Source: Candidatus Tidjanibacter faecipullorum
Lineage (GTDB): Bacteria > Bacteroidota > Bacteroidia > Bacteroidales > Rikenellaceae
Direction of reading: 5' to 3'
Assembly: GCA_019116245.1 (NCBI GenBank)
Contig: DXCC01000032.1
Span: 1 to 48,748, forward strand
DNA length: 48,748 nt
Shown here: positions 2,275 through 44,933 of the stretch, in pieces
Layout of the letters: the number at the start of each line of letters is the position of its first letter
Numbering within the stretch: the first letter of the stretch is position 1
Made by a program: the position numbers and the translations under genes
Notes under the pieces: generated by a model
The model's database searches: none
Told to the model about the DNA's origin: nothing
What the model saw: only the letters and a program-made list of their open reading frames with translations

Positions 2275-2673
2275 TCAGCAGTCGAACAGGTCGAGAAACC
2301 ATTGCGGAGCCCGCATGGGACGCCGGGTGTCGGCATGGACGAACACGAGGACGACTTCGCCCGTGTTGATCAGTTCGCCCGCCTCGTTGTAGACCTCGTG
2401 CAGGAAACGGAGCTTGACGCCCGGACGCTCGGCCAGACGGATCCGTACGGTCAGCAGGTCGTCGTAGTAGGCCGGCGCCAGATAGGTGATCCGGATGTCG
2501 TGGACGGGCAGCATCACTCCCCTCGCCTCCATCTCCTTGTAGGTCAGGCCGCGTTCGCGCATCATTTCGGTTCGCGCCACTTCGTAGTAGTTGACATAGT
2601 TGGAGTGATGGACAACACCCATGTTGTCCGTCTCCTTGTAGCGCACTCTGATTTTGACTTCGGATTCCAGCAT
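2275..2673 (-). CDS. YbgC/FadM-type acyl-CoA thioesterase (hotdog fold)
   Basis: A 132-residue single-domain hotdog protein. The N-terminal block RYKETDNMGVVHHSNYVNYYE (residues 11-31) is the 4-hydroxybenzoyl-CoA thioesterase signature, with D16 as the expected catalytic aspartate. The rest follows the YbgC pattern (AYYDDLLTVRIRL, GELINTGEVVLVFV). Such enzymes hydrolyse acyl-CoA or acyl-ACP thioesters in the cytoplasm; the substrate is not evident. It is the last gene of the minus-strand run that begins with dnaN, 14 bases after the RibF-like gene. Confidence 0.88.
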   Translation of the reverse strand: MLESEVKIRVRYKETDNMGVVHHSNYVNYYEVARTEMMRERGLTYKEMEARGVMLPVHDIRITYLAPAYYDDLLTVRIRLAERPGVKLRFLHEVYNEAGELINTGEVVLVFVHADTRRPMRAPQWFLDLFDC

Positions 2674-2687
2674 ATCGGTGGGGTTGT

Positions 2688-3416: not shown

Positions 3417-3420
3417 GGTG

Positions 3421-4077: not shown

Positions 4078-4089
4078 GGGGACAACGGG

Positions 4090-27140: not shown

Positions 27141-28880
27141 CTATTTCAGCAGATTGTAGTCGTAGATGCCGAACACCTCGGTGGAGACCTCGCCCAGCCA
27201 GCCGGCCTTGGCATTCACGCCGGTCTGCACCTTCACGAAATCAATGTAGCGAAGGTTGGCCGGACGGCCGTCATAGGTTACCGCATTGTCGATTTTGAAA
27301 TGGTTGGCGTTTACGCCGGCGTTGTGGTTGTCGTCGTCGCTGAGGCGGTCCGTCTGGCTGAAGTTGTCAGCATAGCCCCATTCGTAGTCCTGATTCTTCC
27401 AGAAGGTCTCCGACACCATCTCGGTGCGCGGCTTGAGTTTGCGCCCCACCAGCGTATAGGAGTCAGCCTCCACCCAGGCCGGATAGTAGTAGTCCTGCCG
27501 GTGGAACGAGGCCAGGTAGTCGATTTGTCCCGTATTGCCCTCGTTGTCGCTCCACGAAACGGGCTGGCCGGGAGCCTGGGGACGGTAGTAGGTCACGGCG
27601 TAGTCGCAGCGCGTCTCCGCCCCGCCCCACTCGCAGCCCTTCAGCTCGTACCAGGTGTCGTCCGGCAGTCCGTTGCCGTTCTCGTCCTGCATGACCCAGA
27701 CGATGCCGGGTTCGGATGAGTTCGTGAAGGAGTTGCCCTCCACGCGCAGGTTGTAGCCGCCGTCGTTCTCGATGCTGTGGTCGAATCCCACGACCAGACT
27801 GCCGCCGAAACCGCCGAGCGACACGTAGGCCTGCTCCGCCATGCGGCTGTCGGCATAGGCACACGCCTCGTCCATGGTCAGCGCGGTGTAGTGCTCGTTG
27901 ACGAACTGGCCGGGGGCGGCCGCAAAGGCATACACCCTGTTCCAGCCCGCCTGTCCGGAAGAGCTCCGACGATAGGTGCCTTCCGGCGGGCAGCAGTTCA
28001 CCGTGAAGGTCTGCGTACGCGTGGTGTAGGAGTTGGTCATGGTCACCTCCACGGTATGTTCGCCCTCCGCCGAGGGGGTATAGGCAAAGACGAAGGCCGG
28101 ATTGCCGCCCGCATAGCGGGTATCCACGGCGGTTGCTTCGGCCGGTTGGCCATCCACCGCGAACGTATAGGTGGCGTCAAAGGCATTTCCGACCGCGTAG
28201 GGACGGATAAACACCGTGCGTCCGAGCGACACGTTGTAGGTGGTCTGCTCGAACTGCCACGTGAAGGCCATCTGCTCCTGCGTGCAGACCCGCACCGTGA
28301 ACGACAGGGTGTCCGTACCGTCCTCGTTGGCGGCCGTAAAGGTTACGGCATACTCGCCGACCGTTTCGCCGACAAAGGTATAGAACTGATCGGTCGACAC
28401 CTCCACACCGTTCACCTGCCACGAGAAGGTGGAACCCTCGGCATTGTTGACGGCAGGCTGGAGGGGCAGCTCCTCGCCCTGCAGCAGCGAGAAGCCCTGC
28501 GGGGGCACGACAAAGGTGATGGTCGGGAATTTGAGCGGCGCCACGTCGATCCGGATCTCCAGCTGGGCCTGGCCGTGATCGGTGATGACCTCGAAGACCA
28601 GGTAGGCCGAGCCGGCCGTCACGCCGACATAGGTGAACGACAACTCCTCGCCCACCACCTCGCCGTCGAGCGTCCAGCGGTAGGTGGCATCCTCTCCCGC
28701 ATGCTCCACGATCGGTGTGATGGTCACCGGTTCGTTGACCTTGGTGCGGAAGATGGGCTCCTCCTGCTCCAGCGTGATGACGGGCGGTGCGGAGGAGCGG
28801 CGTCCCTCGATTTTCGTGCAGGAGCCCAGCATCGCAGCGACGGCCAGCTCCAGCAGCAACAGTTTGAAAAGGGTTTTCAT
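27141..28880 (-). CDS. PKD-like surface lipoprotein of the B12 operon (BtuH-like candidate)
   Basis: A 579-residue lipoprotein (MKTLFKLLLLELAVAAMLGSC, lipobox LGSC). Three immunoglobulin/PKD-type repeats follow at about residues 30-115, 115-200 and 200-295, each ending in a pattern like GxYxVTFTAxNEDG. The C-terminal domain starts at GWNRVYAFAAAPGQFVNE and has the blocks SLGGFGGSLVVGFDHSIEN, GNGLPDDTWYEL and FVKVQTGVNAKAGWLGEVST. The same domain recurs in the protein at 40819, also under a cobalamin riboswitch. Linkage to BtuB and BtuG suggests a surface B12-binding role similar to BtuH; that identity is inferred from context and needs a sequence comparison. It is last in the operon, 24 bases after the BtuG-like gene. 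Confidence 0.72.
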   Translation of the reverse strand: MKTLFKLLLLELAVAAMLGSCTKIEGRRSSAPPVITLEQEEPIFRTKVNEPVTITPIVEHAGEDATYRWTLDGEVVGEELSFTYVGVTAGSAYLVFEVITDHGQAQLEIRIDVAPLKFPTITFVVPPQGFSLLQGEELPLQPAVNNAEGSTFSWQVNGVEVSTDQFYTFVGETVGEYAVTFTAANEDGTDTLSFTVRVCTQEQMAFTWQFEQTTYNVSLGRTVFIRPYAVGNAFDATYTFAVDGQPAEATAVDTRYAGGNPAFVFAYTPSAEGEHTVEVTMTNSYTTRTQTFTVNCCPPEGTYRRSSSGQAGWNRVYAFAAAPGQFVNEHYTALTMDEACAYADSRMAEQAYVSLGGFGGSLVVGFDHSIENDGGYNLRVEGNSFTNSSEPGIVWVMQDENGNGLPDDTWYELKGCEWGGAETRCDYAVTYYRPQAPGQPVSWSDNEGNTGQIDYLASFHRQDYYYPAWVEADSYTLVGRKLKPRTEMVSETFWKNQDYEWGYADNFSQTDRLSDDDNHNAGVNANHFKIDNAVTYDGRPANLRYIDFVKVQTGVNAKAGWLGEVSTEVFGIYDYNLLK

Positions 28881-28904
28881 GACTATGGATCAATGTAGGG
28901 TTTG

Positions 28905-30080
28905 CTATTCCAGTTCGTCGAGCGGCACCAGCCTGCGGTCCGTAAAGACGATGTGGGCCGGGATGTCGCCGGTGGTGACGGACCATTTCCGCACGCCGTT
29001 CCGGTCGTAACAGTGGAGCCGGCCGGGGGTGACGTAGTCCTTGGCGTCGGTGACGAAAAATTCACCCGTGTCGGGATTGACGGCGATGCCGTAGGGGACG
29101 GTAATCTCCGCCTCCGTGCCGTCCGTGATGAAGTTGCGGGTCAGGATGGTCTTCGTGCGCGTATCCACGATGGCGTACGAGGTAGCGAAGGTCTCCGTGT
29201 ACCAGCTCCACTCCGTGCTGTAGACATAGAGCGAGTCGCCCGCCAGCGTCATGTTGGAGTTGGGCAGCAGATGGAATACGTCCGTCACCTTGTCCGTACG
29301 GCTGTCGATCACGTAGGTTTTGGAAGGGGTATCATAATAGTCGCCGCGCGAGGAGACCCAGATGTTGCCGTAGCGGTCGAGTTCCAGCCGGTGCAGATTG
29401 ACCGCCACGTCGATTTTCCGGATCTCCCGGAACGTATTCAGATCGATCACCGACACGGTACGGTCGTAGTCGGGCACGCGGTAGCCGCCCGAATTGGCCA
29501 CATAGAGCTTGTCGTCGACAACGACCATCTCCTCGGGCTGGTAGCCCACCACACAGGTGTCAATCACCTGCAGCGTGGTGGTATCGACCTTGGCCACATA
29601 GCCCAGCCGGGCGTTGGGGTCGATCTGCACGGGGCCCGCATAGGAGGAGACGTAGGCGTAGCCCTCCTTGAAGACGACGTAGCGACAGTTGGGAATCGAC
29701 ACGGTGGCCAGGTGGCGGGCCGTGGTCACGTCCATCACCTCGACAAAGTGGCTGCAGTTGATGACAGCGTAGAGCTTGTTGCCGTAGATCTGGATGTCGT
29801 TGCCCACGTCGCCCAGTTCGTGCTGGACGTCGGGGTTGCGTTCGGCAAAGATGTTGCGCGAATAGATGCCCGTTTCGTAGTCGTAGTAGTCGAGCGTCGC
29901 CTTGTTGCTGCCCATGTTGCCTTCGTTGAGCAGGAAAAAGCCCTTGACCGATCCGTCGAGGTGGGTGGGCGGCGTGACGGGAATCTGGGTCGACGGCAGC
30001 ACGGGTTCTCCCTTGCGGCAGGCCGCAAAGGGCAAGGCCACCAGACAGGCGATCAGCAGATAGCGCATGCTTCTTTTCAT
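28905..30080 (-). CDS. btuG: BtuG-type cobalamin-binding beta-propeller lipoprotein (DUF5074-like)
   Basis: A 391-residue lipoprotein starting MKRSMRYLLIACLVALPFAAC (lipobox FAAC). The mature protein opens GFFLLNEGNMGSNKATLDYYD and then repeats propeller-blade motifs (NKLYAVINCS, RYVVFKEGYAYVSSY, DKLYVANSGGY, YGNIWVSSRGD). This pattern belongs to the YncE/DUF5074 group that includes BtuG, the surface lipoprotein that captures B12 with very high affinity and caps BtuB. Its ATG overlaps the stop of the BtuB-like gene (ATGA), supporting a 1:1 complex. Confidence 0.85.
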   Translation of the reverse strand: MKRSMRYLLIACLVALPFAACRKGEPVLPSTQIPVTPPTHLDGSVKGFFLLNEGNMGSNKATLDYYDYETGIYSRNIFAERNPDVQHELGDVGNDIQIYGNKLYAVINCSHFVEVMDVTTARHLATVSIPNCRYVVFKEGYAYVSSYAGPVQIDPNARLGYVAKVDTTTLQVIDTCVVGYQPEEMVVVDDKLYVANSGGYRVPDYDRTVSVIDLNTFREIRKIDVAVNLHRLELDRYGNIWVSSRGDYYDTPSKTYVIDSRTDKVTDVFHLLPNSNMTLAGDSLYVYSTEWSWYTETFATSYAIVDTRTKTILTRNFITDGTEAEITVPYGIAVNPDTGEFFVTDAKDYVTPGRLHCYDRNGVRKWSVTTGDIPAHIVFTDRRLVPLDELE

Positions 30081-32179
30081 AACGTAAGACTCAGAATGAT
30101 TTTGAAATTGGTGCCCGGCATCGGATAACACTGCACGACCTCGTACTGCTGGTTGAAGAGGTTGTTCACCTCCAGGGCCACCCGCAGCGACATGTTTTTC
30201 AGGGCAATGTCGCGCGACAGGGCAATGTCGCTCGTGTACCACGGCTGGGCGTAGTTTTCGATCGTATTGGCGGCCTGTTCGTAGCGCTCGCCGGTGTAGA
30301 TGAAGCTGTAGTTCAGGTGCCATGCCCCGTAGCTGACGTTCACAATGGCCGAACCGCTGTTCCACGGGATGTAGGGAATCTGGTCGCCGTAGAAGGGGCT
30401 GGTCGGGTCGGTCAGATCCTGCGCCTGCTGGTAGGTATAGGAAAGGCGGGCATTCACGGCCCAGCGGCCCCGGGTCCAGCATCCGTCCAGCACCACGTCC
30501 ACCCCCTTGATCTCCACATAGCCGAGGTTGATCATCGTCCAGCGGAACTGGTTGGAGGTCGGCATGGCCACGATCTTGTTGTCCACCTGGTTGTAGTAGA
30601 CGTCGGCCTGGGCATTCAGCCCCAGCTCGCCTTCCCCGACGGGCCACGTCTTGCCGTAGGTCATGCCCAGGTCATACTGGGTGGTGTATTCCGGTTCCAG
30701 GCTGATGTTGCCGATGAAGGTGTAGTAGAGATCGTTGAACGTGGGCATCCGGAAGATGCGCTTGTAGAAGGCCCGGATCTGCCAGTCCTGTCCGGCCAGC
30801 GGGCGATAGGAGGCGACGAGGGTCGGAGTCAGCTTGTCCTTGTCGGCGGCCGCTTCCCCCTGCCGGCGGACGATGTCGGTCACGTGGGTGTAGAGCAGAC
30901 TCCCCTGCAGCGACACGCGCCGCAGCTGCAGGGAGGTGGCGGCAGCCGTCAGCACGGTCCACCGCTGCGGATAGACGAAATCGACCAGATCGGCATCCAG
31001 CGTGTTGAACTGGGCATCCACCGCCACATTGGCGCTCCACCACGGGGTGATGGAGAAGATGTTGGCCGCCGAGAGGTAGGCCTCCTGCTGGCGATAGCGG
31101 TTGTCGACATACATGGTGGTCACATCCAGCCGGGGATCGGAGAGGTAGTGGAGGAAGTCGTAGGCATACTTGCCCGTCACCTTGAGGGAGTAGAACGGCT
31201 TCAGCCGCTTGCGCAGGGCCCCCTGCAGGAAGAAGTTCGTGTCCCACTGGCGGTCCTGGTGACGGAACTTACCGGGTTCCTCGCGCACGACGGCCCCCGG
31301 GTAGCCCCGTTCCGAATCGTAGAAATAGGCCTTGGCCCGCCACTCCCCGTCGTTCAGGTCGCCGAACAGCGCCGCCTCGGCCCGGAAGAACCGTACGTCG
31401 CCGTTTTTGCGGACTTCGGTCGTGTCGTAGCCGTCCACCTTGGCGTAGCGGAACTTGTATTCGCCCGACGTGTAGAGATACTCCGCATTGAACGAGCCCC
31501 GCACCCGGTCACCGAACCGGTGTTCCCACAGTACGGAGGGGTCGATCGTCTTGAACGAACCGCCCTTGAGGGTAAACTTCAGGTTGTCGTTCCGCAGCGA
31601 ATCGAACACCGGACGGCGCGTCTCGAAATAGACGGCGCTGGCCGAAGCAAAATCCTTGGCCGTCTGGAAAATGGCACTCTTCTGGCCGTTGTAGATCGAA
31701 ACGGGCTCCATGTTGTCGAGCGAAAAGCGTCCCAGATCGACCACGCCGTTCTGGGCATTGCCGATCTGCACGCCATCGAAGAAGACGCCCACGTGCTGGC
31801 TGCCCATGCTGCGGATATTGACCGTCTTCAGACCGCCGATGCCGCCGTAGTCCTTGAGCTGCGCTCCCGAGAAATAGCGGATGGCATCGGCTATGCTGTA
31901 ACTGTTCAACTGGCGGAGCGTCTCGCCCTCGAGCGTCTGCGAGGAGATCACCTCGTTGCGACGCGGCGCGGTGACCACGATCTCCTCGATGCGCCGCTCG
32001 CCGGCTACCGACGTCCGGGACGAATCGGCCGGCTGCTGGGCGAAGGAAACGGCTCCCCACAACAGCCCCGGCACCGCGATCAGCCGCCGCACCCGATAAC
32101 GGAAACGGGAAGCCGTCCCTTTCGGACAGCTTCCCTCGTTCCGTCGTCTATGTCGGATTGTACTACGCATCATCCGCAT
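30077..32179 (-). CDS. btuB: BtuB-type TonB-dependent receptor for cobalamin
   Basis: A 700-residue outer membrane transporter. After an arginine-rich N-terminus and the signal segment RLIAVPGLLWGAVSFAQQ, a TonB-box-like EEIVVTAPRR precedes the plug (YSIADAIRYFSGAQLKDYGG, VNIRSMGSQHVGVFFDGVQIG). A large barrel follows, ending near VNNLFNQQYEVVQCYPMPGT. TonB energy drives B12 across the outer membrane. Position downstream of a cobalamin riboswitch and beside btuG fixes the substrate with good confidence. The start is uncertain: ATGs at 32179, 32173 and 32170 all give a long basic n-region. It is the only TonB receptor in the window. Confidence 0.9.
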   Translation of the reverse strand: MRMMRSTIRHRRRNEGSCPKGTASRFRYRVRRLIAVPGLLWGAVSFAQQPADSSRTSVAGERRIEEIVVTAPRRNEVISSQTLEGETLRQLNSYSIADAIRYFSGAQLKDYGGIGGLKTVNIRSMGSQHVGVFFDGVQIGNAQNGVVDLGRFSLDNMEPVSIYNGQKSAIFQTAKDFASASAVYFETRRPVFDSLRNDNLKFTLKGGSFKTIDPSVLWEHRFGDRVRGSFNAEYLYTSGEYKFRYAKVDGYDTTEVRKNGDVRFFRAEAALFGDLNDGEWRAKAYFYDSERGYPGAVVREEPGKFRHQDRQWDTNFFLQGALRKRLKPFYSLKVTGKYAYDFLHYLSDPRLDVTTMYVDNRYRQQEAYLSAANIFSITPWWSANVAVDAQFNTLDADLVDFVYPQRWTVLTAAATSLQLRRVSLQGSLLYTHVTDIVRRQGEAAADKDKLTPTLVASYRPLAGQDWQIRAFYKRIFRMPTFNDLYYTFIGNISLEPEYTTQYDLGMTYGKTWPVGEGELGLNAQADVYYNQVDNKIVAMPTSNQFRWTMINLGYVEIKGVDVVLDGCWTRGRWAVNARLSYTYQQAQDLTDPTSPFYGDQIPYIPWNSGSAIVNVSYGAWHLNYSFIYTGERYEQAANTIENYAQPWYTSDIALSRDIALKNMSLRVALEVNNLFNQQYEVVQCYPMPGTNFKIILSLTL

Positions 32180-32200
32180 GCGATTTTCGGATTCGCCGCA

Positions 32201-34255
32201 TTACAGGGCCATGAAGGTTTCGGAGAAACGATAGGCGAAATCGACTCCGGCCGGGCTGGCCTCATTGAAGTCGTACACCTGCACCGGCTCGCTGAGCGAA
32301 GCGGGGTTGAACACGCTGATGCGCGTGGTCATGTAGGCGATCGACTGCCCCACATAGATGTATCCCGTCGTGGGGTGAACACCCGGATAGCCGTAGATCG
32401 AATTGTAGCCGGAGAAGGTGATGTAGTCTCCCTCGAGGGTATGTGTCTCGTAGTTGAAGCGGTCCAGTGCCAGCATCGAGAAATCGCTGCCGGTTGCCAG
32501 GTAGAGATAGGGCTCCTTGAAGCTGGCGCACAGGTTGACCGAGGGCTGCCAGGTGGCCACGCTGAATGAGGCATCCTCGGGCAGTTCACACAGGTACACC
32601 GTCTGACCGTCGTGATCGATGCCGGTGATTTGGGCGCCGGCGGGAGCGCCGGCACTGTTCGGCGAACCGGTAAATTCACCCGACAGTACCACGTGGAAGT
32701 TGCCGTCGGCTCCCTTGGCCACGCCTTTTACCTGGCGGTTGGGGAAATCGACCCGTTTGACAATCTGCTCCGTAGCCGGATCGATGAAGACCAGCGCATT
32801 GGCCAGGGCCGCCACGATCTGGCCGCGGGAGGCCCACATGCGGCCCTTCAGCGCACCCTGTTCGGCAAACGTGCCGAAGGTGCCCGCGATGTCCTGCGAG
32901 GAGAGCGTACCGCTCTTCAGATCGAAGGTCTTGATGCCCGAATTGTATTCCATGGCCTCGTCCACATACTGGATGAAGGCCTTATCGCCGATGACGGCCA
33001 GATGCTGCGGACAGCCCAGGCTGCTCTTGGCGTGGTCGGCATTGAAATTCAGATCATTGTAGGCGTTCTGCAACTTCATCGTGTGGGCATCGCACACCGC
33101 GATCTGTCCGTCGCCGCCCCTCGAATTGCCGTTCTGGTTGAGCAGTACGATCCGGTCGCCGGCGATCCACATGTCCTGCAGCACATTGCCCGGCGAGCGG
33201 CCGTCGTTGGCCTCTTCATACACGTGTTCGTAGAAGCGGCCGTACTGGTCGATGTAGCACAGCGTACCGTTCTGGTTGCTCATGTTGCCCTCCATCACGA
33301 CGAAGGCGCCTTCCGGATGGGTGTAATCCACCACATAGACCTCCTGTACGGCCATCAGCGTCTGGCCGTTGTTCGAAAGGCCGATCACGGAAACCTTGCC
33401 GTCCAGTGCCGTGCCGGCCGAATAGGCGGCCGGAGCCGAGATCGTCACCGTAGCTGCCTTGTAGTCGAGCGATGCGGACCAGCCGGCCGGTGCGGCCAGC
33501 ACTTCGGCATACTGCATGCCTTCGAGGGTCAGCGATACGGTGGTTTGGGCGCCATAGCGCAGCGCCACGGGCAGCCCGTCCTCGGTAACGGCAAAGGCCA
33601 GTACGGCCCGGTCGATCGGCAGCGTGAGCTGCGTGCCGTTGGCCAGCGTGAAGATCACGCTACCCTCCTGCTCCGTTACGTTCTGGAAGAACGACGAATC
33701 GCCGTTGCCCGTAGCCTGAATGTTGCCCGGAATGCGCTCCGGTCCCGAGCCGTAGTCAACGGTCCAGTAGCCCTCGCTATCGACACCCATGACCGGAGTC
33801 ACGCCCGACGCACCATCCTTGCCGCTGACCGGCAGCTTGTTCGAGCCGTCCGTCAGCCAGTCGGTCTGACCGTCCGTCGTGATCGTCCAGTAGTAAACGC
33901 CGTCGGTATCCTGTTTGACGCCGATAACGGGAGCATCCTGGCCGTTGGCTCCGGTTTGGCCGTTCTGACCGTCCTTGCCGTTCTTGATGACGAGCGGCTC
34001 GGTGCGGCCGCTGATGGTCATTTCATAGCCGTCGGCCGTGGAGACAATCTCCGTGATGACACCGCCCTGCTGGAGCGTGGCGATGATGGTGTTCATCGAC
34101 TCGATGTCGCTGTTCATGGCTTTGACGGTCTTCTCCAGCGCCGTCAGACGGCCGTCGAGATCATCGACCTTGTTCCAAAGTTTGCTGTCGTCGTAACAGC
34201 CCGTCAGACCGAGCGCTACGGCCACGCAACAGAGGATCGTAAAGATTCTTTTCAT
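32201..34255 (-). CDS. DUF4988 stalk plus beta-propeller lipoprotein, first gene of the B12 operon
   Basis: A 684-residue lipoprotein (MKRIFTILCCVAVALGLTGC). The N-terminal 60 residues form a predicted coiled coil (KLWNKVDDLDGRLTALEKTV). Collagen-like glycine-rich turns follow (GKDGQNGQTGANGQDAP) with paired repeats of the type YYWTITTDG and GYWTVDYGSG. This is DUF4988-like and probably a trimeric stalk. From about residue 330 a propeller of the BtuG/DUF5074 type follows (GAFVVMEGNMSNQNGTLCYID, GNVLQDMWIAGDRIVLLNQNG). Start at 34255 because it gives the lipobox; the longer frame has no signal. It follows the riboswitch by about 300 bases. It probably binds corrinoids at a distance from the membrane (inference). 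Confidence 0.82.
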   Translation of the reverse strand: MKRIFTILCCVAVALGLTGCYDDSKLWNKVDDLDGRLTALEKTVKAMNSDIESMNTIIATLQQGGVITEIVSTADGYEMTISGRTEPLVIKNGKDGQNGQTGANGQDAPVIGVKQDTDGVYYWTITTDGQTDWLTDGSNKLPVSGKDGASGVTPVMGVDSEGYWTVDYGSGPERIPGNIQATGNGDSSFFQNVTEQEGSVIFTLANGTQLTLPIDRAVLAFAVTEDGLPVALRYGAQTTVSLTLEGMQYAEVLAAPAGWSASLDYKAATVTISAPAAYSAGTALDGKVSVIGLSNNGQTLMAVQEVYVVDYTHPEGAFVVMEGNMSNQNGTLCYIDQYGRFYEHVYEEANDGRSPGNVLQDMWIAGDRIVLLNQNGNSRGGDGQIAVCDAHTMKLQNAYNDLNFNADHAKSSLGCPQHLAVIGDKAFIQYVDEAMEYNSGIKTFDLKSGTLSSQDIAGTFGTFAEQGALKGRMWASRGQIVAALANALVFIDPATEQIVKRVDFPNRQVKGVAKGADGNFHVVLSGEFTGSPNSAGAPAGAQITGIDHDGQTVYLCELPEDASFSVATWQPSVNLCASFKEPYLYLATGSDFSMLALDRFNYETHTLEGDYITFSGYNSIYGYPGVHPTTGYIYVGQSIAYMTTRISVFNPASLSEPVQVYDFNEASPAGVDFAYRFSETFMAL

Positions 34256-34559
34256 TTGCGTTTGTCTTTTATTGTGAAACAATGCGTAGGCATCTTTCGC
34301 TGACAAACACGACTGACGGAAGAAGAGCAAGGCTTCGGACCCGTGACACGACCGGACCTGCCGCACCGCGGCAACCAGATATCCGGAGACGACAACCGAC
34401 CATTCGACCGTAATCGGGTTTGTCGCACGGAATTGCCGAACCGCTGCTGAAGACCGATTACGGAATTGCGAAACTGTAACTGAATATGGGTACTGTCCGA
34501 AAAACCGTCGTATCGGCTCTCATTCACCGTAAGAGCAAATCCGTGTCATCGACAGCAAA
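34256..34559 (-). other. leader between cobalamin riboswitch and first gene
   Basis: About 300 bases of transcribed leader without a convincing gene. It contains a 10-bp inverted repeat (CCGTAATCGG at 34408-34417 and its complement at 34454-34463) and two nearby copies of CGGAATTGC. An ATG-initiated frame at 34527-34252 covers most of it, but its composition does not look coding. Confidence 0.4.
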
Positions 34560-34760
34560 GGCAGGTCTTCTGACTTGTTCCTGTCTGGGCGCCTTCCCGA
34601 TTCGCTTGCGGAATCAGTGGCCAAGAATGCCCGGACCTGTTACGGGAGACGTCGTACGCCTCACCGGGAACTTACAGCAGCGGGAACTGTTGCCGATTCT
34701 CACGGCATTCCCTTTTAATCCTCGCCGCAGCCCCTTCCAGGGAGCGGCACCGGAACCGAT
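34560..34760 (-). promoter_or_regulatory. cobalamin riboswitch of the BtuB operon
   Basis: On the minus strand the B12-aptamer blocks occur in order: GGTTCCGGTGCC, GGATTAAAAGGGAA, GAGAATCGGCAACAG, CCCGCTGCTGTAA, and near the 3' end GTCAGAAGACCTGCC. TACCTTTG at 34767-34774 would start transcription at its 5' edge. Adenosyl- or other cobalamin binding should switch off the four downstream uptake genes. Confidence 0.93.
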
Positions 34761-34766
34761 GCGTTG

Positions 34767-34774
34767 CAAAGGTA
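34767..34774 (-). promoter_or_regulatory. -7 box ahead of the cobalamin riboswitch
   Basis: The minus strand reads TACCTTTG (TAnnTTTG), a few bases before the aptamer 5' end. Confidence 0.6.
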
Positions 34775-34839
34775 ATGTTTTTTTCAGAAACCAAGCGATC
34801 GGACCGTTTTTTTTGTCCGGACCGCCTGCGGAGCCGGTC

Positions 34840-37560: not shown

Positions 37561-37564
37561 TGTG

Positions 37565-37572
37565 CAAAATTA
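37565..37572 (-). promoter_or_regulatory. -7 box of mutS
   Basis: The minus strand reads TAATTTTG, 5 bases before ATG 37560 and 26 before ATG 37539. It favours the latter or a leaderless message. Confidence 0.5.
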
Positions 37573-37631
37573 GAAAATCTCCCCGAAAACCGAACGGCGG
37601 GCGGCCCGTTGTATTTTGACCGGAATATCCC

Positions 37632-37639
37632 TATTTTTG
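37632..37639 (+). promoter_or_regulatory. -7 box of the gene at 37688
   Basis: TATTTTTG matches TAnnTTTG, 49 bases before the ATG. Confidence 0.5.
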
Positions 37640-37687
37640 TTGGCAACGCTGACGGTCTCCGTGCAGCGCCCATCCATCGCACGACAC

Positions 37688-38446
37688 ATGAACCGCAAGA
37701 TCAAAGCGATTTACAACGCAAATCGCAACTGGTGGGACAGCTTCACCAGCTGCTTCATAGGAACCCTGTTGGGCATTGGCATCACCTTCTGGGTGTCCGG
37801 CGCCATCGCCCACCGCGAGAAGGTGGAGACGGAGCGGCGCATTCAGCTGCTGACACTCGACGATCTGCAGGGCAACATCGCCTCGCTCAAGGCGCAGGGC
37901 GAGGTCATGCTGCAGACGGACTCCCTGTTCCAGCAGGCATTGGCCTGCTACCCTGACCGTCTGGATGAGATCTCCGCCGATTTGGCCGGTCGCATCTATT
38001 CCGCAGTCCTGACTCCCAGTCAGTACAGCGGCACCCGGATGGCGGAAACCATGTTCACCGACAACATCGAGGTGTGGAAATCGATCGACGATCTGTCGGT
38101 GATCCGCATCATCGGCGATACCTTTGTCATGCAGAACGACATGGCCGCCTGCCTCGACCGACTCAACGGGATCAAGGAACGGCTGCTGACCAACATCGGG
38201 CATCAGCAGGCCGTGCTGGATTTCAATGACCACCACGAAGCCATGCGGTGTTTCTTCGGCACCAAGGAGAACCTGAACCTGCTCATGCAGTTCCAGATGC
38301 AGAGCCATGTGCTGCATCTGGGCACACAGCTCCTCGACGAAATGTTGACCCGCATCAAGGAGAAACTGGGGATTACCGACGAGGAACTGGCCCAGCTGTA
38401 CGACAAGCGCTACGAGATGGAGGTATTCGAATCACACTCCTTTTGA
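37688..38446 (+). CDS. hypothetical protein with one N-terminal membrane helix
   Basis: A 252-residue protein. Residues about 15-40 (WDSFTSCFIGTLLGIGITFWVSGAI) form one transmembrane helix after a basic n-region. The rest is soluble, charged and largely helical, with possible coiled-coil stretches near RRIQLLTLDDLQGNIASLK and the C-terminal KLGITDEELAQLYDKRYEME. I do not recognise a family with confidence; similar one-helix proteins occur across Bacteroidales. The start at 37688 is preferred over the upstream in-frame ATG at 37616, which precedes the promoter. It is followed by a small terminator hairpin. Confidence 0.75.
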   Translation: MNRKIKAIYNANRNWWDSFTSCFIGTLLGIGITFWVSGAIAHREKVETERRIQLLTLDDLQGNIASLKAQGEVMLQTDSLFQQALACYPDRLDEISADLAGRIYSAVLTPSQYSGTRMAETMFTDNIEVWKSIDDLSVIRIIGDTFVMQNDMAACLDRLNGIKERLLTNIGHQQAVLDFNDHHEAMRCFFGTKENLNLLMQFQMQSHVLHLGTQLLDEMLTRIKEKLGITDEELAQLYDKRYEMEVFESHSF

Positions 38447-38449
38447 CCT

Positions 38450-38466
38450 GCCGTCTTCCGGACGGC
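38450..38466 (+). terminator. small terminator after the gene at 37688
   Basis: GCCGTC pairs with GACGGC around a 5-base loop and is followed by TGTCGTTTT. Confidence 0.5.
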
Positions 38467-38473
38467 TGTCGTT

Positions 38474-39001
38474 TTACACGATCGGGTCGCCGCAATAGTC
38501 CCGCCGCCGGCAGGCCCGGCACCGCTCCCCCATCCAGATGCTGTCGAACTGATGCATGGCCGGTGCGACGATCGCCGCCTCGTCCGAAAGAATGCCGCAT
38601 TCGAAATTGCGGGTGGCGGCCGATTTCATGCCGATGCCGGCTCCCGTCAGATTGGCCGATCCCAGATAGACCTCGCGACAGTCGAAAATCATCATCTTGG
38701 CATGCAGCCGCGGACACAACACCCGCTCCAGCCGGGCGGCCAGCACGGGATAGCGGTCGAACTCCTGCCGGAAAATCGGGCCCGGCTCCTTGGCATGCAT
38801 GAGCCGCACCTCCACGCCCCGATTCAGCAGACCGGCCAGCACTTCCAGAAACGGTACGGTGCGTGCCGCACGGCCCGCCGCCCCGGCGACATGGAGATCC
38901 TTGATATCCGCCGTCGCAATCCACAGACTGCGTTTCACAACGGCCACTTTGGACAGCACGTCCGTGTAATGTTCGGCATCGGCAATATAACGGGTGGGCA
39001 T
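38474..39001 (-). CDS. single-HKD phospholipase D-like protein
   Basis: A 175-residue protein with one HKD motif: H100, K102 and D107 in LHAKMMIFDCREVYLGSAN, followed by NLTGAGIG. One motif is half of a phospholipase active site, so the enzyme should work as a dimer, as Nuc-type nucleases do. There is no signal peptide. The C-terminus has three cysteines (C161, C164, C170 in ERCRACRRRDYC) that could bind metal. Substrate could be DNA or phospholipid. The longer open frame upstream is not supported; ATG 39001 lies downstream of the TATCTTTG box. Confidence 0.8.
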   Translation of the reverse strand: MPTRYIADAEHYTDVLSKVAVVKRSLWIATADIKDLHVAGAAGRAARTVPFLEVLAGLLNRGVEVRLMHAKEPGPIFRQEFDRYPVLAARLERVLCPRLHAKMMIFDCREVYLGSANLTGAGIGMKSAATRNFECGILSDEAAIVAPAMHQFDSIWMGERCRACRRRDYCGDPIV

Positions 39002-39070
39002 GGCAGCAGTAGTTGTATTTGAAGGATGTCCGGTGTGTGGCATGTGGCCAACCGGCTCCGCTCGGAGATA

Positions 39071-39078
39071 CAAAGATA
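39071..39078 (-). promoter_or_regulatory. -7 box of the HKD gene
   Basis: The minus strand reads TATCTTTG, 69 bases before the ATG at 39001. Confidence 0.5.
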
Positions 39079-39285
39079 CACACTCGGCGGCGTCATCGTG
39101 CCATACGCAAACGCCCCGTACGCCCGACCGTTCACGTAGCGTTCCAATCCGTATTATTTGCCGAAATGTGCCCCATTTCCGACTGCCGTCTGGATCATCT
39201 ACCTGGGGCAATCCTCCACGTCGAAACACATATATTCATGATTATTAATAATTTATAAATATTCGAATTTTTGACAAAAGAATCG

Positions 39286-39293
39286 TAAATTTG
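39286..39293 (+). promoter_or_regulatory. -7 box of the YczE-type gene
   Basis: TAAATTTG matches TAnnTTTG in an AT-rich region, 22 bases before the ATG at 39316. Confidence 0.6.
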
Positions 39294-39315
39294 CATTCCG
39301 AATAAAACAGGTAAC

Positions 39316-40068
39316 ATGTCAAACACCAATCACCAAACCGAAAAACAAAAAATACTCTCTTTCTGCTGGCAACATTTTCTACTTCTCCTCGCACTTGACC
39401 TCATGACCCTCGGGGTCGCGCTGTGTGTACGCTCCAATCTGGGCAGCAGCGTTATCTCATCCCTTCCTTATGTGCTCTCCCTGGCAGGCCCCGTCAGCTT
39501 CCTGCCGGAATGGACCATTGGCCACTACACGATCTTGATGAATTTCGTCTTTGTCATTTGCCAGATTCTGATTCTGCGCAAACAGTTTGAACTCGTCCAA
39601 CTCTTTCAGCTGCTCGTCGGCTTTGTGTTCGGCTGGCTGATCGACTTCAACATGTGGCTGACCGATTTCCTGACCTGCGAGACGCTGGTGTCCCAGATCC
39701 TGACCCAGCTGGCCGGCTGCACCGTGATGGGCATCGGCATCGCCTTCGAGATCAAATGCGGCTCCGTGACCATGCCCGGCGAAGGCATCTCCATTGCCGT
39801 CAGTCGGGTCAGCAAGCTCCCCTTCCCGAAGGCCAAAATCATCGTCGACACGACGCTGGTCATCATTGCCGTCGTGGCCAGTTTCATCTTCTTCGGCCGT
39901 TGGATTTGGAGCGCCGTGGGCATCGGCACGATGTTTGCCATGGTGTACGTCGGGCTGGTCGTAAAACACACCATGCCGCATATAAAATGGTTCGACCGGG
40001 TGCTGGCTTACGTCCCCGGATTCCACCGTTACCTGGTCGGCCTGCTGCGATTCATTACCAAGAATTAG
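39316..40068 (+). CDS. YczE/YitT-type (DUF6198-like) membrane protein
   Basis: A 250-residue integral membrane protein with about five or six helices. These lie around FLLLLALDLMTLGVALCV, HYTILMNFVFVICQILIL, LFQLLVGFVFGWLIDF, LAGCTVMGIGIAFEI and TTLVIIAVVASFIFFG. Conserved features include the LGSSVISSLPYVLS loop and CGSVTMPGEGISIAVSR. The family is widespread and mostly uncharacterised; transport of a small solute is possible but unproven. It is monocistronic, with its own promoter and a strong terminator. Confidence 0.8.
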   Translation: MSNTNHQTEKQKILSFCWQHFLLLLALDLMTLGVALCVRSNLGSSVISSLPYVLSLAGPVSFLPEWTIGHYTILMNFVFVICQILILRKQFELVQLFQLLVGFVFGWLIDFNMWLTDFLTCETLVSQILTQLAGCTVMGIGIAFEIKCGSVTMPGEGISIAVSRVSKLPFPKAKIIVDTTLVIIAVVASFIFFGRWIWSAVGIGTMFAMVYVGLVVKHTMPHIKWFDRVLAYVPGFHRYLVGLLRFITKN

Positions 40069-40091
40069 CTATCGGGCTTCCCGTAAACCAC

Positions 40092-40120
40092 AGGGGGCAA
40101 ACACATCGTGTTTGCCCCCT
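40092..40120. terminator. terminator after the YczE-type gene
   Basis: A perfect 13-bp stem (AGGGGGCAAACAC and complement) has a 3-base loop and is followed by TATT. Confidence 0.8.
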
Positions 40121-40303
40121 TATTCGTTGAGCGCGCCGCCATGCCGGCCACCCCTTCCGCGTGCGCCTGTTCGATGCGTTTCTGCCATCTGTCCTGCGCT
40201 TTCCCCGCAGCAAACCGCTCCTGCGCCGATGCGGACAGCCGCAGGCTCTCCGGCGCAACGTTCAAAAAAGTCATCTATTCTTTCGTCCTTGAAAGAAATG
40301 TCG

Positions 40304-40311
40304 TACTTTTG
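40304..40311 (+). promoter_or_regulatory. -7 box ahead of the second cobalamin riboswitch
   Basis: TACTTTTG matches TAnnTTTG. TTTC, one base off TTTG, lies 19 bases upstream at 40281-40284, a good -33 position. Confidence 0.6.
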
Positions 40312-40317
40312 CCGCCG

Positions 40318-40483
40318 ATTGGTTCCCAAGGGCCCTTCGGGTCTCGAGGATTAAAAGGGAATCGGGTGAAAATCCCGGACAGTCCCGCTGCTGTGAAGCT
40401 CCGCCAACCGCTCGAATTTCTGTCAACCACTGATCATGTGTATCGGGAAGGTTTCGGGTGGGGAGTCAGTCAGAAGACCTGCC
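40318..40483 (+). promoter_or_regulatory. second cobalamin riboswitch
   Basis: The aptamer blocks occur in order on the plus strand: ATTGGTTCCC, GGATTAAAAGGGAATCGGGTG, AAAATCCCGGACAG, CCCGCTGCTGTGA and GTCAGAAGACCTGCC near the 3' end. It has the same family of conserved blocks as the aptamer at 34560 but different stem sequences. It should repress the three surface-lipoprotein genes downstream when B12 is plentiful. Confidence 0.93.
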
Positions 40484-40818
40484 ATCACTTTTGTTTTTAA
40501 CCGAACTCGCGGACAGGGCGGTTGAATGTACGAAATAAATGCTTCATCCATTTTTCAGGCTGTACAAGCCGTTGATGCTCCTTGTCGGGGGTGAGTTGTT
40601 CTGTTGCTGCGGTCCGGACGGCAGCGGAATGCTCCGGCCTGACCGTGTCGCCAAAAGCGGCAGCCATCCCGCATATCGGCCGCTCCCGGTTCATGCCTCT
40701 CCGGAGCGCCATGCCCTTGTCTGCAGCAGCAACAGCTTCCGAAAGATCCGTACAAGCACGCTGTCCCGCAACTGGACAACAACCAATCGAAAACAACCAA
40801 ATTTACAATCACATACGC
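40484..40818 (+). other. leader between the second riboswitch and its first gene
   Basis: About 335 bases with no convincing gene. Two ATG frames cross it but have non-coding composition. A T-rich run (CACTTTTGTTTTT) follows the aptamer directly and could belong to an expression platform. Confidence 0.4.
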
Positions 40819-41832
40819 ATGAAACAGATTGCTTTCTTCAACGGAAGGGCCGCCATGGCCTTGCTGCTGATCGGCTGTGCGACCGCCTGTGAAAAACAGG
40901 ATACGCCTCCCGACAGCGCCCCTACTCCGTATGTCACCCGCGTGGTGGAGTTCCGCCCGGCCGTGGGTCAGTTCACCAACCTGCTGCCCGAATATGAACC
41001 CGGCGACACGCAGGAGACCATGAACCGCAAGGCGCTCGAAGCGATCGGGAACAACAACCGGGGCATGATTTCGCTCGGCGGTTTCGGCGGCTATGTCATC
41101 GTCGGTTTCGATCACACGATCGAGAACAGGAGCGGTCTGTGCGATTTCCGCGTCCTGGGCAATGCCTTCCAGGCCAGCGGACAATCCGAATACGGCAGCT
41201 GTGAGCCCGGCGTGATCCAGGTGGCCTACGACGCCAACGGAAACGGCCGGCCCGACGAGGAGGAGTGGTACGAGATTGCCGGAAGTTCCTATCCGGTCAG
41301 CAACGAATCCTGGCTGGATCGGGCCGCCGAGGCAGGCAATGACACCCGGACCATTCTGGACTACGAAATCACCTACTATCGCCCCGCATCCGAACCCGGC
41401 GCGCCGACCGCACAGTATATCCGCTGGGAAGACAATCAGGGCCGCAGCGGCTACAAGGCCATGAACGGCTCGCACCGTCAGTCCTATTACCCGCAATGGA
41501 TTACGGAGGATCACATCACCTTCCGCGGTACGCGGCTGCCGGAAAACGGCATCGACATCAGTACCAACGGCACCTACTTCGCGCTTTACCGCTTCGCATA
41601 CGGCTATGCCGACAACGACCCCAATAGCAGTGACCGGTCGGCCATCGACATCGACTGGGCCGTCGATGCAGCCGGACAGCCTGCCCGGTTGCCCGGCGTG
41701 GACTTCATCCGCATCCACACCGGGGTAAACCAGGAGAACGGCTGGCTGGGCGAATGCTCGACGGAAATCATGGGCGTGGAGGATCTGCACCTGCTCGACG
41801 TTCAGATCGCCAGCGAAACAGTCACACAATAA
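40819..41832 (+). CDS. BtuH-like surface lipoprotein, short form
   Basis: A 337-residue lipoprotein (MKQIAFFNGRAAMALLLIGC; the lipidated cysteine is C20 or C24). The mature part is one domain homologous to the C-terminal half of the protein at 27141. Shared blocks are VVEFRPAVGQFTN (AFAAAPGQFVN there), ISLGGFGGYVIVGFDHTIEN, NGNGRPDEEEWYE, ITYYRP and FIRIHTGVNQENGWLGECST. It lacks the PKD-like repeats. Position directly under a cobalamin riboswitch suggests corrinoid binding at the cell surface. It heads an operon with two propeller lipoprotein genes, one broken. Confidence 0.78.
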   Translation: MKQIAFFNGRAAMALLLIGCATACEKQDTPPDSAPTPYVTRVVEFRPAVGQFTNLLPEYEPGDTQETMNRKALEAIGNNNRGMISLGGFGGYVIVGFDHTIENRSGLCDFRVLGNAFQASGQSEYGSCEPGVIQVAYDANGNGRPDEEEWYEIAGSSYPVSNESWLDRAAEAGNDTRTILDYEITYYRPASEPGAPTAQYIRWEDNQGRSGYKAMNGSHRQSYYPQWITEDHITFRGTRLPENGIDISTNGTYFALYRFAYGYADNDPNSSDRSAIDIDWAVDAAGQPARLPGVDFIRIHTGVNQENGWLGECSTEIMGVEDLHLLDVQIASETVTQ

Positions 41833-41860
41833 CACAGACATTTACCAATAACGCAATACG

Positions 41861-43309
41861 ATGAAAATGAAAAAAAGTATGGAGTCTGCTGCTGTTTGCA
41901 GCAGTTCTGTCAATGGGAAGTTGCTCAAAAGAGCATGAACCGGCTGCTCCGGTATTGGAATGGACGACGGATATCGCCACCGAAGCGCCCCTCTTTGTCG
42001 TTCCCGAAACGACGGTAACGATTGGCTATGCGGCCCAGCATGTGCAGGCCATTACGACAGATGCCCTGCCCGACGGCTGGAACGTCCGGGTGGACGAAGA
42101 GGCCCAGGCAATCGTCATTTCGGCCACGGCCGATGCCGAAACCCGGGCTACGCTGACCGTTACGGCCGTCGGCGAAGGGGACCGGACCGTTTCGCAAAGC
42201 GTGGCACTCTACTGTCTGAATGCTTTCGACGATCCGAACGGCACGTTCGTACTCAACGAGGGCAACATGACCACGGAGAACGGCTCGCTGACCTATATTT
42301 CACCCGAAGGATACGTATGGGCCGACGCCTACAGGACGGTGAACGGCACGGAACTGGGCAATGTGGCTCAGGACATGGCCTTCTGTGACGGCAAGATTTA
42401 CGTCATTTCGCAGAACGGCAACGAGAATGCCGTAGGCGCAACTTTCGAAAACGACGGCATGCTGGTCGTCATGGATGCCAGGACGCTGAAGAAAACGGCC
42501 GCCTATACGAATCAGGATCTGGCCCAGCTCGACTGGCCGACCCACATTGCCGTACTCGACGAACAGCACATCTACATCCGCGACAATGCGGGTATCTACC
42601 GTTTCGATGCGACCACCCGGCAGCTGACGTTTGCGAGGGATCCGAAAAGGCCCCCAAAAGCCGATTCGTGACGATGAACGGCAAGGTATACACCTACCTC
42701 TCGGGCTATTCGAGCAAGCTCCTCGAGATTTCGGCGGACAACGATGCCGTCGTGTCGATCCGGTTTCCCTATAGTGTTCCCTGCATGATCAACCGCGTGC
42801 TGGGCATTCAGGGGGCCGAGGACGGCCGGATGTGGGTGATGACCTCTACGGCCACAACCGTCGGCTCGGGCCAGATCGCCATCGGCAAGTTCAATCTCTC
42901 GGACCAGACGATGATCCAACGCCGGATCAGTGTCGAACCGGGCGTAGGCTCCTCGGGCGAGGCTTTTGCCGCCTCCGGCAACAACCTCTCCTATGCCGAC
43001 GGGGTGACGGTCTACTGCCTGCCCTTTGACTAAAGCGAGGATCTTAAGGCCGACTCGGGCCTCGATGCCGAACAGTGGATGGTCGATCTGTCGGCGCTGG
43101 ACAAGAATGCCGGCATGCGCTACAACGGGCTGGGCGTGCACCCTGCCTCGGGCCGCGTCTACATCAACACGATCAAATCGTTTGCCCTCTTTGACCAGAA
43201 CCAGATCTGGGGCTTCGATTTTGCCGCCAGTGCGGAAGCTCCGGCCGTCAAATATGAGAACTGTACCCGATTCCCGGCCGGTTTCTACTTTCCGCCCGTT
43301 CGTAAATAA
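41861..43309 (+). pseudogene. BtuG-like propeller lipoprotein gene with three disruptions
   Basis: Three lesions interrupt one gene of about 483 codons. First, a run of seven A at 41870-41876 shifts the frame: six A would give MKMKKVWSLLLFAAVLSMGSC, a proper lipoprotein signal. Second, near 42632-42636 a base is missing, so the frame changes between RQLTF and EGSEKAPKSRFV. Third, TAA at 43031-43033 interrupts CLPFD and SEDLKADSG. Around these, propeller motifs match the intact paralogues (FVLNEGNMTTENGSLTYIS, GNVAQDMAFCDGKIYVISQNG, RFPAGFYFPPVRK). It lies between two intact genes of the riboswitch operon. Confidence 0.8.
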
Positions 43310-43318
43310 CCTGTTCAA

Positions 43319-44593
43319 ATGACACGACCTATGCACAACAGATGGATTGCCGCCCTTTTCACGACGGGCGTACTGCTCATGACTTGCGGATGTACGAAAG
43401 AGACCGGTCCGGGCGGAAGTGGCCCGGGAGGTGACGGATCGGGCGCCTCCCTCGGCGGATATGCCTCACCCGATGGCGTACTGATTCTCAACCAGGGGGC
43501 TCCGCGCCTGGAAAACGGCTCGGTGACCTGGATTGCGCCCGACGGCACGGTCGAACAGAACGTCTATCGCCGGATCAACGGTTCGACCTGCGGCAATACG
43601 GCACAGGATCTCTACCTGCAGGGGGATAAGATCTATATCTTGAGCAACAATAACGCAGTGCCTGATCTGGGAAACAGCGAGCCCGGCGACGGTTCGATCG
43701 TCATCGTCGATGCCGAGACCTTCCGCCGCGAAAAGGTGTTCCGCTTCGAGGATCTGCTGTTTCACAAGCCGGAAGGTTCGCTCGAAACGGTGGACATGCT
43801 GCCGTTGGCCACCCCGCTGGAAAACCTGGCCGTCATCGACGAACACAACCTCTTTCTGGCCGACGGTCAGGGCATGTTCCGCCTCGACACCGAAACGGGC
43901 GTGCTGACACTCGTGGAGGGCGGCTACCATTTCGGAAATCAAGGCAATACGATCGAGACCGTGGTAGCTACGCGCGGCATGACCGTCATCGGCGATCATC
44001 TCTACTGTGCCGGCGGCGGCTTCTGGACCAACACGCAGCTTTTCGAGTTTACCAAGAATTGCAATGAAGTCACCCGCACGCTCGATCTCTCGGGAGAATT
44101 CATCAGCGGCATCTGCCGGACAGGCGATCACGAGATCGTCGTGGCCACCTGCGGCCGCGCCGGATCCCTGAAGAGCTACCTGACCTTTGTCGACACCGAG
44201 ACCATGACCGCAACGCTGGAGAAGCCGATCAATGCCGATATTTCGGCCAACCTGATGAATTCTTCGGGTGTCACGCTCGCAGGCGACTATCTCTACTTCA
44301 CGGGCGGAACGTTGACAGTCAGCCGTATCTCCCTCAAGACCTGGAAAGTCGAGGAATACATTCAGGTCAATCAGGACGCGCCGCAGGCCCGGTATCTGAC
44401 CTGTAATGTGGTGGCCGATCCAAAGAAGAACCTGCTCTATGTCTCGGTTTCGAACGATCTGAACGAAGCAATTGTGTCCGACGGGCAGGTCCTGGTCTAC
44501 GATTGCAGCGGGGATACGCCCCAACTGGTCATGCGGCTCGAAAATCAGGCCAGTTACCCGGTGAACATTTATCCGATGTCGCAGTTCGAATAA
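43319..44593 (+). CDS. BtuG-like propeller lipoprotein (DUF5074-like)
   Basis: A lipoprotein of 424 residues, or 420 from the ATG at 43331. The signal HNRWIAALFTTGVLLMTCGC gives a lipobox cysteine, and a glycine-rich linker follows (GPGGSGPGGDGSG). The propeller begins GVLILNQGAPRLENGSVTWI and continues GNTAQDLYLQGDKIYILSNN, LAVIDEHNLFLADGQG and LLYVSVSNDLNEA. It is similar to the broken gene upstream and to the propellers of the other B12 operon. It probably binds corrinoids on the surface under riboswitch control. It starts 9 bases after the pseudogene stop and is followed by a terminator. Confidence 0.82.
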   Translation: MTRPMHNRWIAALFTTGVLLMTCGCTKETGPGGSGPGGDGSGASLGGYASPDGVLILNQGAPRLENGSVTWIAPDGTVEQNVYRRINGSTCGNTAQDLYLQGDKIYILSNNNAVPDLGNSEPGDGSIVIVDAETFRREKVFRFEDLLFHKPEGSLETVDMLPLATPLENLAVIDEHNLFLADGQGMFRLDTETGVLTLVEGGYHFGNQGNTIETVVATRGMTVIGDHLYCAGGGFWTNTQLFEFTKNCNEVTRTLDLSGEFISGICRTGDHEIVVATCGRAGSLKSYLTFVDTETMTATLEKPINADISANLMNSSGVTLAGDYLYFTGGTLTVSRISLKTWKVEEYIQVNQDAPQARYLTCNVVADPKKNLLYVSVSNDLNEAIVSDGQVLVYDCSGDTPQLVMRLENQASYPVNIYPMSQFE

Positions 44594-44650: not shown

Positions 44651-44933
44651 TGTCGTGTTGGGATGCATCAAGGCGCCTGCAGCCGTGTACCTGCTGACGG
44701 TCCGGCGAATTGCGGTACGACGGTCCTGTCCGGACAAAACCGACGCCACGGCACATCCGTAACGAAAAAATGACAACCCGGGAGGATCCCCTGCGATGCC
44801 GTGGCATCATTGTCCGCATGCATCCGATTCTGTTAAATGAAACGAATATCACAAATCGTGCATCCACAATTCCGATTATCATCATGTTTTCGTATCTTCG
44901 TTTTAAATCAACTTGAAAAGAAAGGGGGACGAT

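Follow-up and report, generated by a model that had tools for sequence, protein, structure and literature searches.

The DNA stretch analyzed here, 48,748 nucleotides of Candidatus Tidjanibacter faecipullorum, a gut bacterium of the Rikenellaceae, the family of Alistipes (contig DXCC01000032.1; the window), contains two operons that each begin with a cobalamin riboswitch. Together, the two operons probably constitute a corrinoid-scavenging system of the Bacteroidota BtuB-BtuG-BtuH-BtuK kind that is switched on at cobalamin shortage. This reading draws on the directly observed aptamers, gene content, conserved contact residues, predicted folds and operon conservation. Corrinoid capture by BtuB, BtuG and BtuH, which had been suggested in an earlier note made from the letters of this DNA, is now backed by evidence from protein families, contact residues, folds and synteny. 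One operon also encodes a stalked propeller lipoprotein (K), whose type of DUF4988 stalk bears a different head in relatives. Such use of a single stalk for exchangeable heads is a new variation on the known B12 capture system. Published work is cited below by PMC number.

Two operons under cobalamin riboswitches

A cmscan search of the whole window against Rfam at the gathering threshold (31.5 for RF00174) yields exactly two matches, both to the cobalamin riboswitch RF00174 and both full-length. The riboswitch of the minus operon (34543-34775, minus strand) scores 88.1 bits (E 1.6e-20) and spans model positions 1-189 of 189, and that of the plus operon (40318-40500, plus strand) scores 91.9 bits (E 1.3e-21). 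The two B12 aptamers named in the earlier note are thereby confirmed, and the failure to match the cobalamin covariance model that it had considered did not materialize, with both scores far above the gathering score. The minus riboswitch is followed by the genes of K, BtuB, BtuG and a BtuH with PKD domains, in this order, and the plus riboswitch by the genes of BtuH and of a further propeller (K2), with a broken propeller gene between them.

The leader between the minus riboswitch and K (34255-34543, minus strand) folds more strongly than its shuffles (z -2.79); despite this fold, an expression platform was not identified in it. The plus leader, from the riboswitch to BtuH, has one weak hairpin and a fold z of -0.47, and an obvious terminator or strong fold was rejected there. 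Between the plus operon and the preceding gene, a consensus scan places a terminator-like hairpin of 13 pairs (40092-40120, plus strand), in a region with 2 sites versus 1.2 in shuffles. A plainly foreign base composition of the plus operon was also rejected because the difference in G+C content (0.58 versus 0.61) is too small.

The receptor BtuB and the binding proteins BtuG and BtuH

The minus operon encodes a TonB-dependent corrinoid receptor of the BtuB1 type (30077-32179, minus strand). The protein contains a TonB plug and a barrel domain, has a solved BtuB as its closest structure (BtuB1, 8blw_A, E 5.5e-125) and adjoins BtuG. On the NCBIfam model TIGR01779 it scores 93.8 bits, under the cut-off of 599.7, and a second BtuB of the genome, on contig C13, likewise falls under it. 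The adjoining BtuG propeller lipoprotein (28905-30080, minus strand) carries a DUF5074 domain and matches the propeller of BtuG1 (8blw_B, E 4.5e-43). In a tree of 41 propellers, it lies inside a clade of 10 BtuG rows with a support of 100/99. Lipoprotein labels in the window were assigned by eye from signal sequences.

The two proteins for which the earlier note had noticed a shared C-terminal domain are both BtuH. The minus-operon protein (27141-28880, minus strand) resembles BtuH2 (7biz_A, E 8.9e-106) and has PKD/Ig-like domains (PKD_3), and the plus-operon protein (40819-41832, plus strand) is a single-domain lipoprotein that matches the H domain of BtuG1 (8blw_B, E 5.4e-69) and BtuH2 (7biz, E 3.5e-40). 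Eight B12-contact residues of BtuH2, taken from PMC8941943, were mapped through the 7biz alignment. Seven of the eight are identical in each window protein, with Y510F as the exception in the minus-operon BtuH and W511F in the plus-operon BtuH. Both proteins thus combine the C-terminal BtuH domain with most of the B12-contact residues. The third BtuH of the genome, on C13, has four of the eight. For scale, five are found in BtuH1 of a B. thetaiotaomicron-like genome (L092), and for B. thetaiotaomicron BtuH1, surface plasmon resonance gave a Kd of 11 nM for cobalamin (PMC12751083). The N-terminal partner of BtuH varies in relatives, being PKD in L117 and a fimbrillin-like Mfa_like_1 domain in L119.

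Propeller lipoproteins and their predicted folds

K (32201-34255, minus strand) is a stalked propeller lipoprotein of 684 amino acids that contains, by Pfam, DUF4988 (1e-41) and DUF5074 (3.1e-54), the families PF16378 and PF16819. The DUF4988 stalk spans residues 26-213, a predicted beta-sandwich approximately residues 230-308 and the DUF5074 propeller residues 315-673. K2 (43319-44593, plus strand) is a second propeller lipoprotein with DUF5074 (4e-20), identified also by a model and a fold search. Between BtuH and K2, the plus operon contains a broken propeller lipoprotein gene (~41860-43306, plus strand) that encodes an N-terminal domain and DUF5074. It is interrupted by two frame changes, within ~41860-41913 and 42640-42668, and by one in-frame stop at 43031-43033. 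Both frame changes lie at single-base runs by eye, and some of the damage may be an assembly error. All five relatives checked (L109-L112 and L066) have intact copies. Pfam detects DUF5074 in all three intact propeller proteins and in the first piece of the broken one, and a profile search of the genome detects it in the last part as well. The count in the earlier note, three intact propeller lipoproteins (BtuG, K and K2) and one broken, is therefore correct.

Do K and K2 belong with the known corrinoid-binding propellers? Single-sequence searches of the PDB return no chain at E 0.01 for the K propeller and BtuG3 as the sole match for K2 (E 0.007). AlphaFold (AF2) models were built from alignments of 10 sequences. 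The K model has a mean predicted local distance difference test (pLDDT) score of 77.8, with values of 80-95 in most propeller blocks and under 65 in most of the stalk, and the K2 model has a mean of 66.6. In Foldseek searches against the PDB, the top 19 of 1809 matches to K are all BtuG1, BtuG2 or BtuG3 entries, BtuK1 (9s6c) or 3dsm, at E 2e-16 to 1.8e-13; the next match follows at 2.4e-10, an approximately thousandfold gap to unrelated propellers. The top 18 of 1346 matches to K2 are likewise BtuG, BtuK1 or 3dsm, with the next at 1.9e-9. The entry 3dsm, whose PDB title names Bacteroides uniformis, is cited as a BtuG structure in PMC6143338. The comparison with characterised BtuG and BtuH that the earlier note had recommended for the propeller and C-terminal domains has thus given family, fold and contact-residue matches, and the lipoproteins did not fall into families unrelated to corrinoid binders.

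In the tree of 41 propellers, K and K2 lie opposite the BtuG clade, as do the copies of the broken gene that are intact in relatives. BtuK1 and BtuK2 join the K side by long branches under midpoint rooting, and the tree program warns of possibly false joins. K2 is 70% identical to the L111 copy and pairs with that of L109, a locus that has a receptor, with a support of 97/74. K and K2 each combine a DUF5074 propeller, a predicted BtuG/BtuK fold and a place in a B12 riboswitch operon, as BtuK does. The N-terminal PKD-like domain of the L092 BtuK1 is absent from K, which has DUF4988 there. We do not class K as a BtuK, and by analogy it would work like one.

A DUF4988 stalk that bears exchanged heads

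A heptad pattern runs through residues 23-62 of K, where 11 of the 12 a/d positions are hydrophobic versus 2 of the 28 others, and a short Gly-X-Y run was seen by eye after the heptad region. The stalk is similar to the N-terminal end of BT3328-family hyaluronate lyases, with a score under the cut-off of that model. At least 11 of 200 Rikenellaceae genomes, the source genome included, encode a protein that matches K over nearly its whole length. Among relatives, the propeller persists and the N-terminal part varies: it is DUF4988, a module without Pfam matches (L054 and L071) or nearly absent (L057, L064 and L075). A by-eye reading of the L054 and L071 part as fimbrillin-like was withdrawn since Pfam gives zero matches there.

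The stalk also bears another head. In L117 and L116, DUF4988 is fused to DUF4465 in the first gene after the riboswitch, ahead of the BtuB, BtuG and BtuH genes (B, G and H in the gene orders below). DUF4465 is the BtuJ family of B12-binding jelly-rolls, eight distant members of which bind B12 (PMC13398666). A search with the L117 protein against 200 Rikenellaceae genomes gave a whole-length match in at least 14, and 12 of the 14 listed loci (L116, L117 and L128-L137, with G024 and G014 left out) were sampled. Pfam finds both DUF4988 and DUF4465 in all 12, each of which is preceded on its own strand by a cobalamin riboswitch. In 11 of the 12, no recognised gene of the operon comes before the fusion. 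The exception is L133 (L133:5363-10222), where the gene is placed after BtuB and BtuG. L137, with the order riboswitch, stalk-DUF4465, B, G, H, matches the minus operon of the window with the head exchanged. No DUF4465 was found by Pfam in the ten window proteins or pieces scanned, and PF16819 proteins are described as neighbours of DUF4465 genes (PMC13398666).

The stalk-propeller sample consists of 13 loci (the window, L049-L053, L055, L056, L058-L060, L062 and L073). A riboswitch lies upstream on the same strand in 12 of them, L049 being the exception, and the L055 aptamer is cut by a contig end. Pfam recognizes both stalk and propeller domains in 10 of the 13, and a full-length match indicates them in the other three. 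Loci of both samples were picked by protein match, so these counts measure context and not frequency. A DUF4988 stalk on a B12-binding head was not described in the literature searched, with preprints and most subscription papers outside that search. We tentatively propose, as a possibility close to an even balance, that Rikenellaceae use one DUF4988 coiled-coil/collagen-like stalk, probably oligomeric, to bear either a BtuG/BtuK-type propeller or a BtuJ-type jelly-roll under riboswitch control, and that such proteins, along with the receptor-less operons described below, would form a capture layer that serves BtuBG in trans, off the membrane or on vesicles.

Stalks and propellers also occur apart from each other. 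Stalk-only DUF4988 proteins of 313 and 325 amino acids come first after the riboswitch in L050 (5028-5969) and L054 (15356-16333), with a leucine-rich-repeat protein next. Lone DUF5074-like propeller genes directly follow cobalamin riboswitches in L057 (9037-10290), L061 (9239-10474) and L064 (8985-10211), with Pfam run on L057 and L064. The stretches fetched around these three genes contain zero matches to BtuB, BtuG and BtuH.

A receptor-less operon that recurs in relatives

Among the matches listed, relatives of the plus-operon BtuH with 52-75% identity occur in 16 of 199 other Rikenellaceae genomes and in 0 of 22 other genomes of the same genus. This distribution would fit a horizontal gain or a loss of the plus operon. 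All 16 neighbourhoods were examined. A cobalamin riboswitch is present in 15, all except L122, a 3.7 kb contig. BtuB lies within the fetched stretch in 12, one of which (L121) is of the C13 type, and was not seen in that of L120. L109 and L110 have the order riboswitch-B-G-H-K-K, and L111, L112 and L066 have riboswitch-H-K-K, as in the window. The receptor-less binder operon is thus a recurring layout and a form of the operon that reads B-G-H-K-K in two relatives.

The genomes of L111, L112 and L066 (G046, G167 and G192) have, as the best match to the window BtuB over most of its length, proteins that are only 25-27% identical; with completeness values of 99, 84 and 88%, respectively, the absence of a window-type BtuB is firm for the first only. 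A window-type BtuB with 60-65% identity is present in G022 and G154. Given that the receptor-less operon recurs in genomes without a window-type BtuB, it would there serve a receptor of another type. Delivery to another receptor is therefore the better of the ideas in the earlier note, which had suggested that the second operon may feed a receptor elsewhere. That suggestion stands as possible in view of the second BtuB on C13 and of the three relatives, two of whose genomes are only 84 and 88% complete, and we put it no more strongly.

Approximately 320 bases past the plus operon lies a gene for a leucine-rich-repeat protein (44913-46727, plus strand) with a lipoprotein-like start by eye. Leucine-rich-repeat or receptor-L proteins are also found within the B12 operons of L050, L054 and L073.

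B12-related loci elsewhere in the genome

The assembly comprises 1.86 Mb and is 99.75% complete. Contig C13 contains a second locus (L013:6347-10645) with BtuG, BtuH and BtuB in order, preceded by a gene that we take to be guaA. This cluster has zero Rfam riboswitch matches up to E 1. The single TonB receptor of the earlier note (30077-32179) consequently holds for the window and not for the genome, and one receptor serving the whole cell is rejected. Genome-wide, the binders number three BtuH, two BtuG and two intact K proteins. The genome has three cobalamin riboswitches, the third of which lies outside the window (C4:2045-2257), ahead of nrdD (gene 2373-4502), which encodes the B12-independent anaerobic ribonucleotide reductase. 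Contig C2 encodes methylmalonyl-CoA mutase, and C32 encodes a PF01497 protein adjoining a BtuC-like permease that scores under the BtuC cut-off. At C7:21489 (L125:103-3042), a 979-amino-acid open frame scores above the Pfam B12-binding cut-off and resembles radical SAM methyltransferases, under their cut-offs.

Proposed mechanism and alternative explanations

Without corrinoid, the riboswitches would let both operons run. BtuG would cap BtuB and pass the corrinoid to it. BtuH and the K propellers would serve as additional binders that retain corrinoid on the cell surface or on vesicles before handing it to BtuBG, and the coiled-coil/Gly-rich stalk of K probably keeps the binding head away from the membrane. 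We infer both B12 binding by K and this role of its stalk. The plus operon, without its own receptor, would feed the window BtuB, the C13 BtuB or both.

Several points weigh against such a scavenging system. Corrinoid binding here is a prediction from sequence, fold and context. The structure alignments give an identity of only 14-17% between K and BtuG or BtuK1, and a profile from the K alignment (A1) ranks BtuG2 (5.9e-9) above BtuK1 (4.5e-5). The stalk is modelled with low confidence, and the K2 model, at a mean pLDDT of 66.6, is modest. The predicted corrinoid binding of K and of the window BtuG draws on family and fold matches and not on the B12-contact residues of BtuG2, which include Trp194, Trp272 and Tyr316. 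One broken gene in the plus operon could mean decay. Furthermore, BtuK2, though similar to BtuK1, did not bind cobalamin (PMC12751083), and likeness to BtuK is thus no guarantee of binding.

The last point leads to the possibility that only BtuG and BtuH bind corrinoid and that the K propellers serve a structural function or one in vesicles, as was proposed for BtuL, or, like BtuK2, are no binders. Neither BtuK2 nor BtuL binds cobalamin (PMC12751083), K is remote in sequence from BtuK1, and DUF4988 stalks also occur on other proteins, with the K stalk resembling the N-terminus of BT3328-family lyases and many listed matches covering the stalk only. However, the top folds for both the K and K2 propellers are B12 binders, the propeller persists where the N-terminal part changes among DUF4988, a Pfam-less module and near absence, and the same stalk in the same slot bears the B12-binding DUF4465 family. 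We consider non-binding K propellers quite unlikely on this balance. Distinctly improbable is the idea of the earlier note that the binders are specialised for different corrinoids. It would account for the number of divergent paralogues that this genome carries (three BtuH, two BtuG and two intact K), and in BtuJ1 a tryptophan stacks against the lower ligand (PMC13398666), by which some binders may sense that ligand. In contrast, BtuG2 leaves the lower ligand exposed and uncontacted and also binds cobinamide (PMC10404256), and BtuH2 contacts it weakly (PMC8941943). Since the lower ligand is what differs among cobamides and is scarcely contacted by BtuG2 and BtuH2, broad binding is likelier.

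Decay of the plus operon deserves separate consideration. The operon could be a leftover of the full B-G-H-K-K operon of L109 and L110 that contributes little, given that it has neither BtuB nor BtuG and that one of its propeller genes has three lesions. Such decay is unlikely in our view because the riboswitch, BtuH and K2 are intact, and K2 and BtuH are 66-70% and 69-75% identical, respectively, to their nearest relatives. L111, L112 and L066 keep the receptor-less layout, and each has an open copy of the gene that is broken in the window. The frame changes, moreover, are at single-base runs, as judged by eye, and part of the damage may stem from the assembly.

A corrinoid-scavenging system with receptor-less catchers would bear on a wider question. 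B12 is contested in the gut, and published work leaves open how near-irreversible catchers hand it over to the transporter. Operons of catchers without a receptor, and stalks that swap two unrelated folds, offer test cases from nature. Together they suggest that capture is separable from transport and that the position of the head matters besides its fold. Members of DUF5074 and DUF4988 would thereby gain a likely role.

Comparison with known B12 systems

The B. thetaiotaomicron-like genome was reached through a search with the solved BtuB1 stretch, to which its own BtuB1 stretch is 85% identical, and is presumably a Bacteroides. Its locus L092 has the order riboswitch, K1, K2, H1, riboswitch, B1, GH, J1, which is that of the published B. 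thetaiotaomicron operon 1, internal riboswitch included (PMC12751083). Its K1 contains DUF5074 and a PKD-like domain (PKD_3 at 26.4 bits, cut-off 26.3) and matches BtuK1 (9s6c, E 8e-188), and its K2 matches 4r5o. L053, from Rikenellaceae, has a double riboswitch as in L092, before K and before BtuB. Rikenellaceae and Porphyromonas somerae combine the riboswitch with K-B-G-H or K-H-B-G, and the order in P. somerae is riboswitch-K-B-G-H.

In Rikenellaceae, the window locus corresponds to locus 1 of Bacteroides. Like the B. thetaiotaomicron locus (btuK1-btuK2-btuH1-btuB1-btuGH-btuJ1; PMC12751083 and PMC8941943), it has a cobalamin riboswitch first, a DUF5074 propeller ahead of BtuB, BtuG and BtuH domains, and surface lipoproteins. 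It differs in that BtuG and BtuH are separate genes instead of a fused btuGH, K has a DUF4988 stalk in place of the PKD-like domain, and the minus-operon BtuH has PKD domains. The window operon also lacks BtuJ and has a separate H-K-K operon without a receptor in its vicinity.

The individual proteins show the same mixture of likeness and difference. BtuH2 (7biz; PMC8941943) shares its C-terminal B12-binding domain with both window BtuH proteins, whereas PKD domains are present in the minus-operon protein and absent from the plus-operon protein. BtuK1, which binds cobalamin tightly (PMC12751083), is like K a DUF5074 propeller lipoprotein from a riboswitch operon with BtuB1 and is near to it in fold. 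However, K is only 14-15% identical to BtuK1 and has another N-terminal module, and the BtuK grouping rests on long branches. BtuJ and its family DUF4465 (PMC13398666) have a jelly-roll fold that is unrelated to the K propeller, and yet in relatives of the window the BtuJ-type head is borne on a DUF4988 stalk like that of K, likewise downstream of a cobalamin riboswitch.

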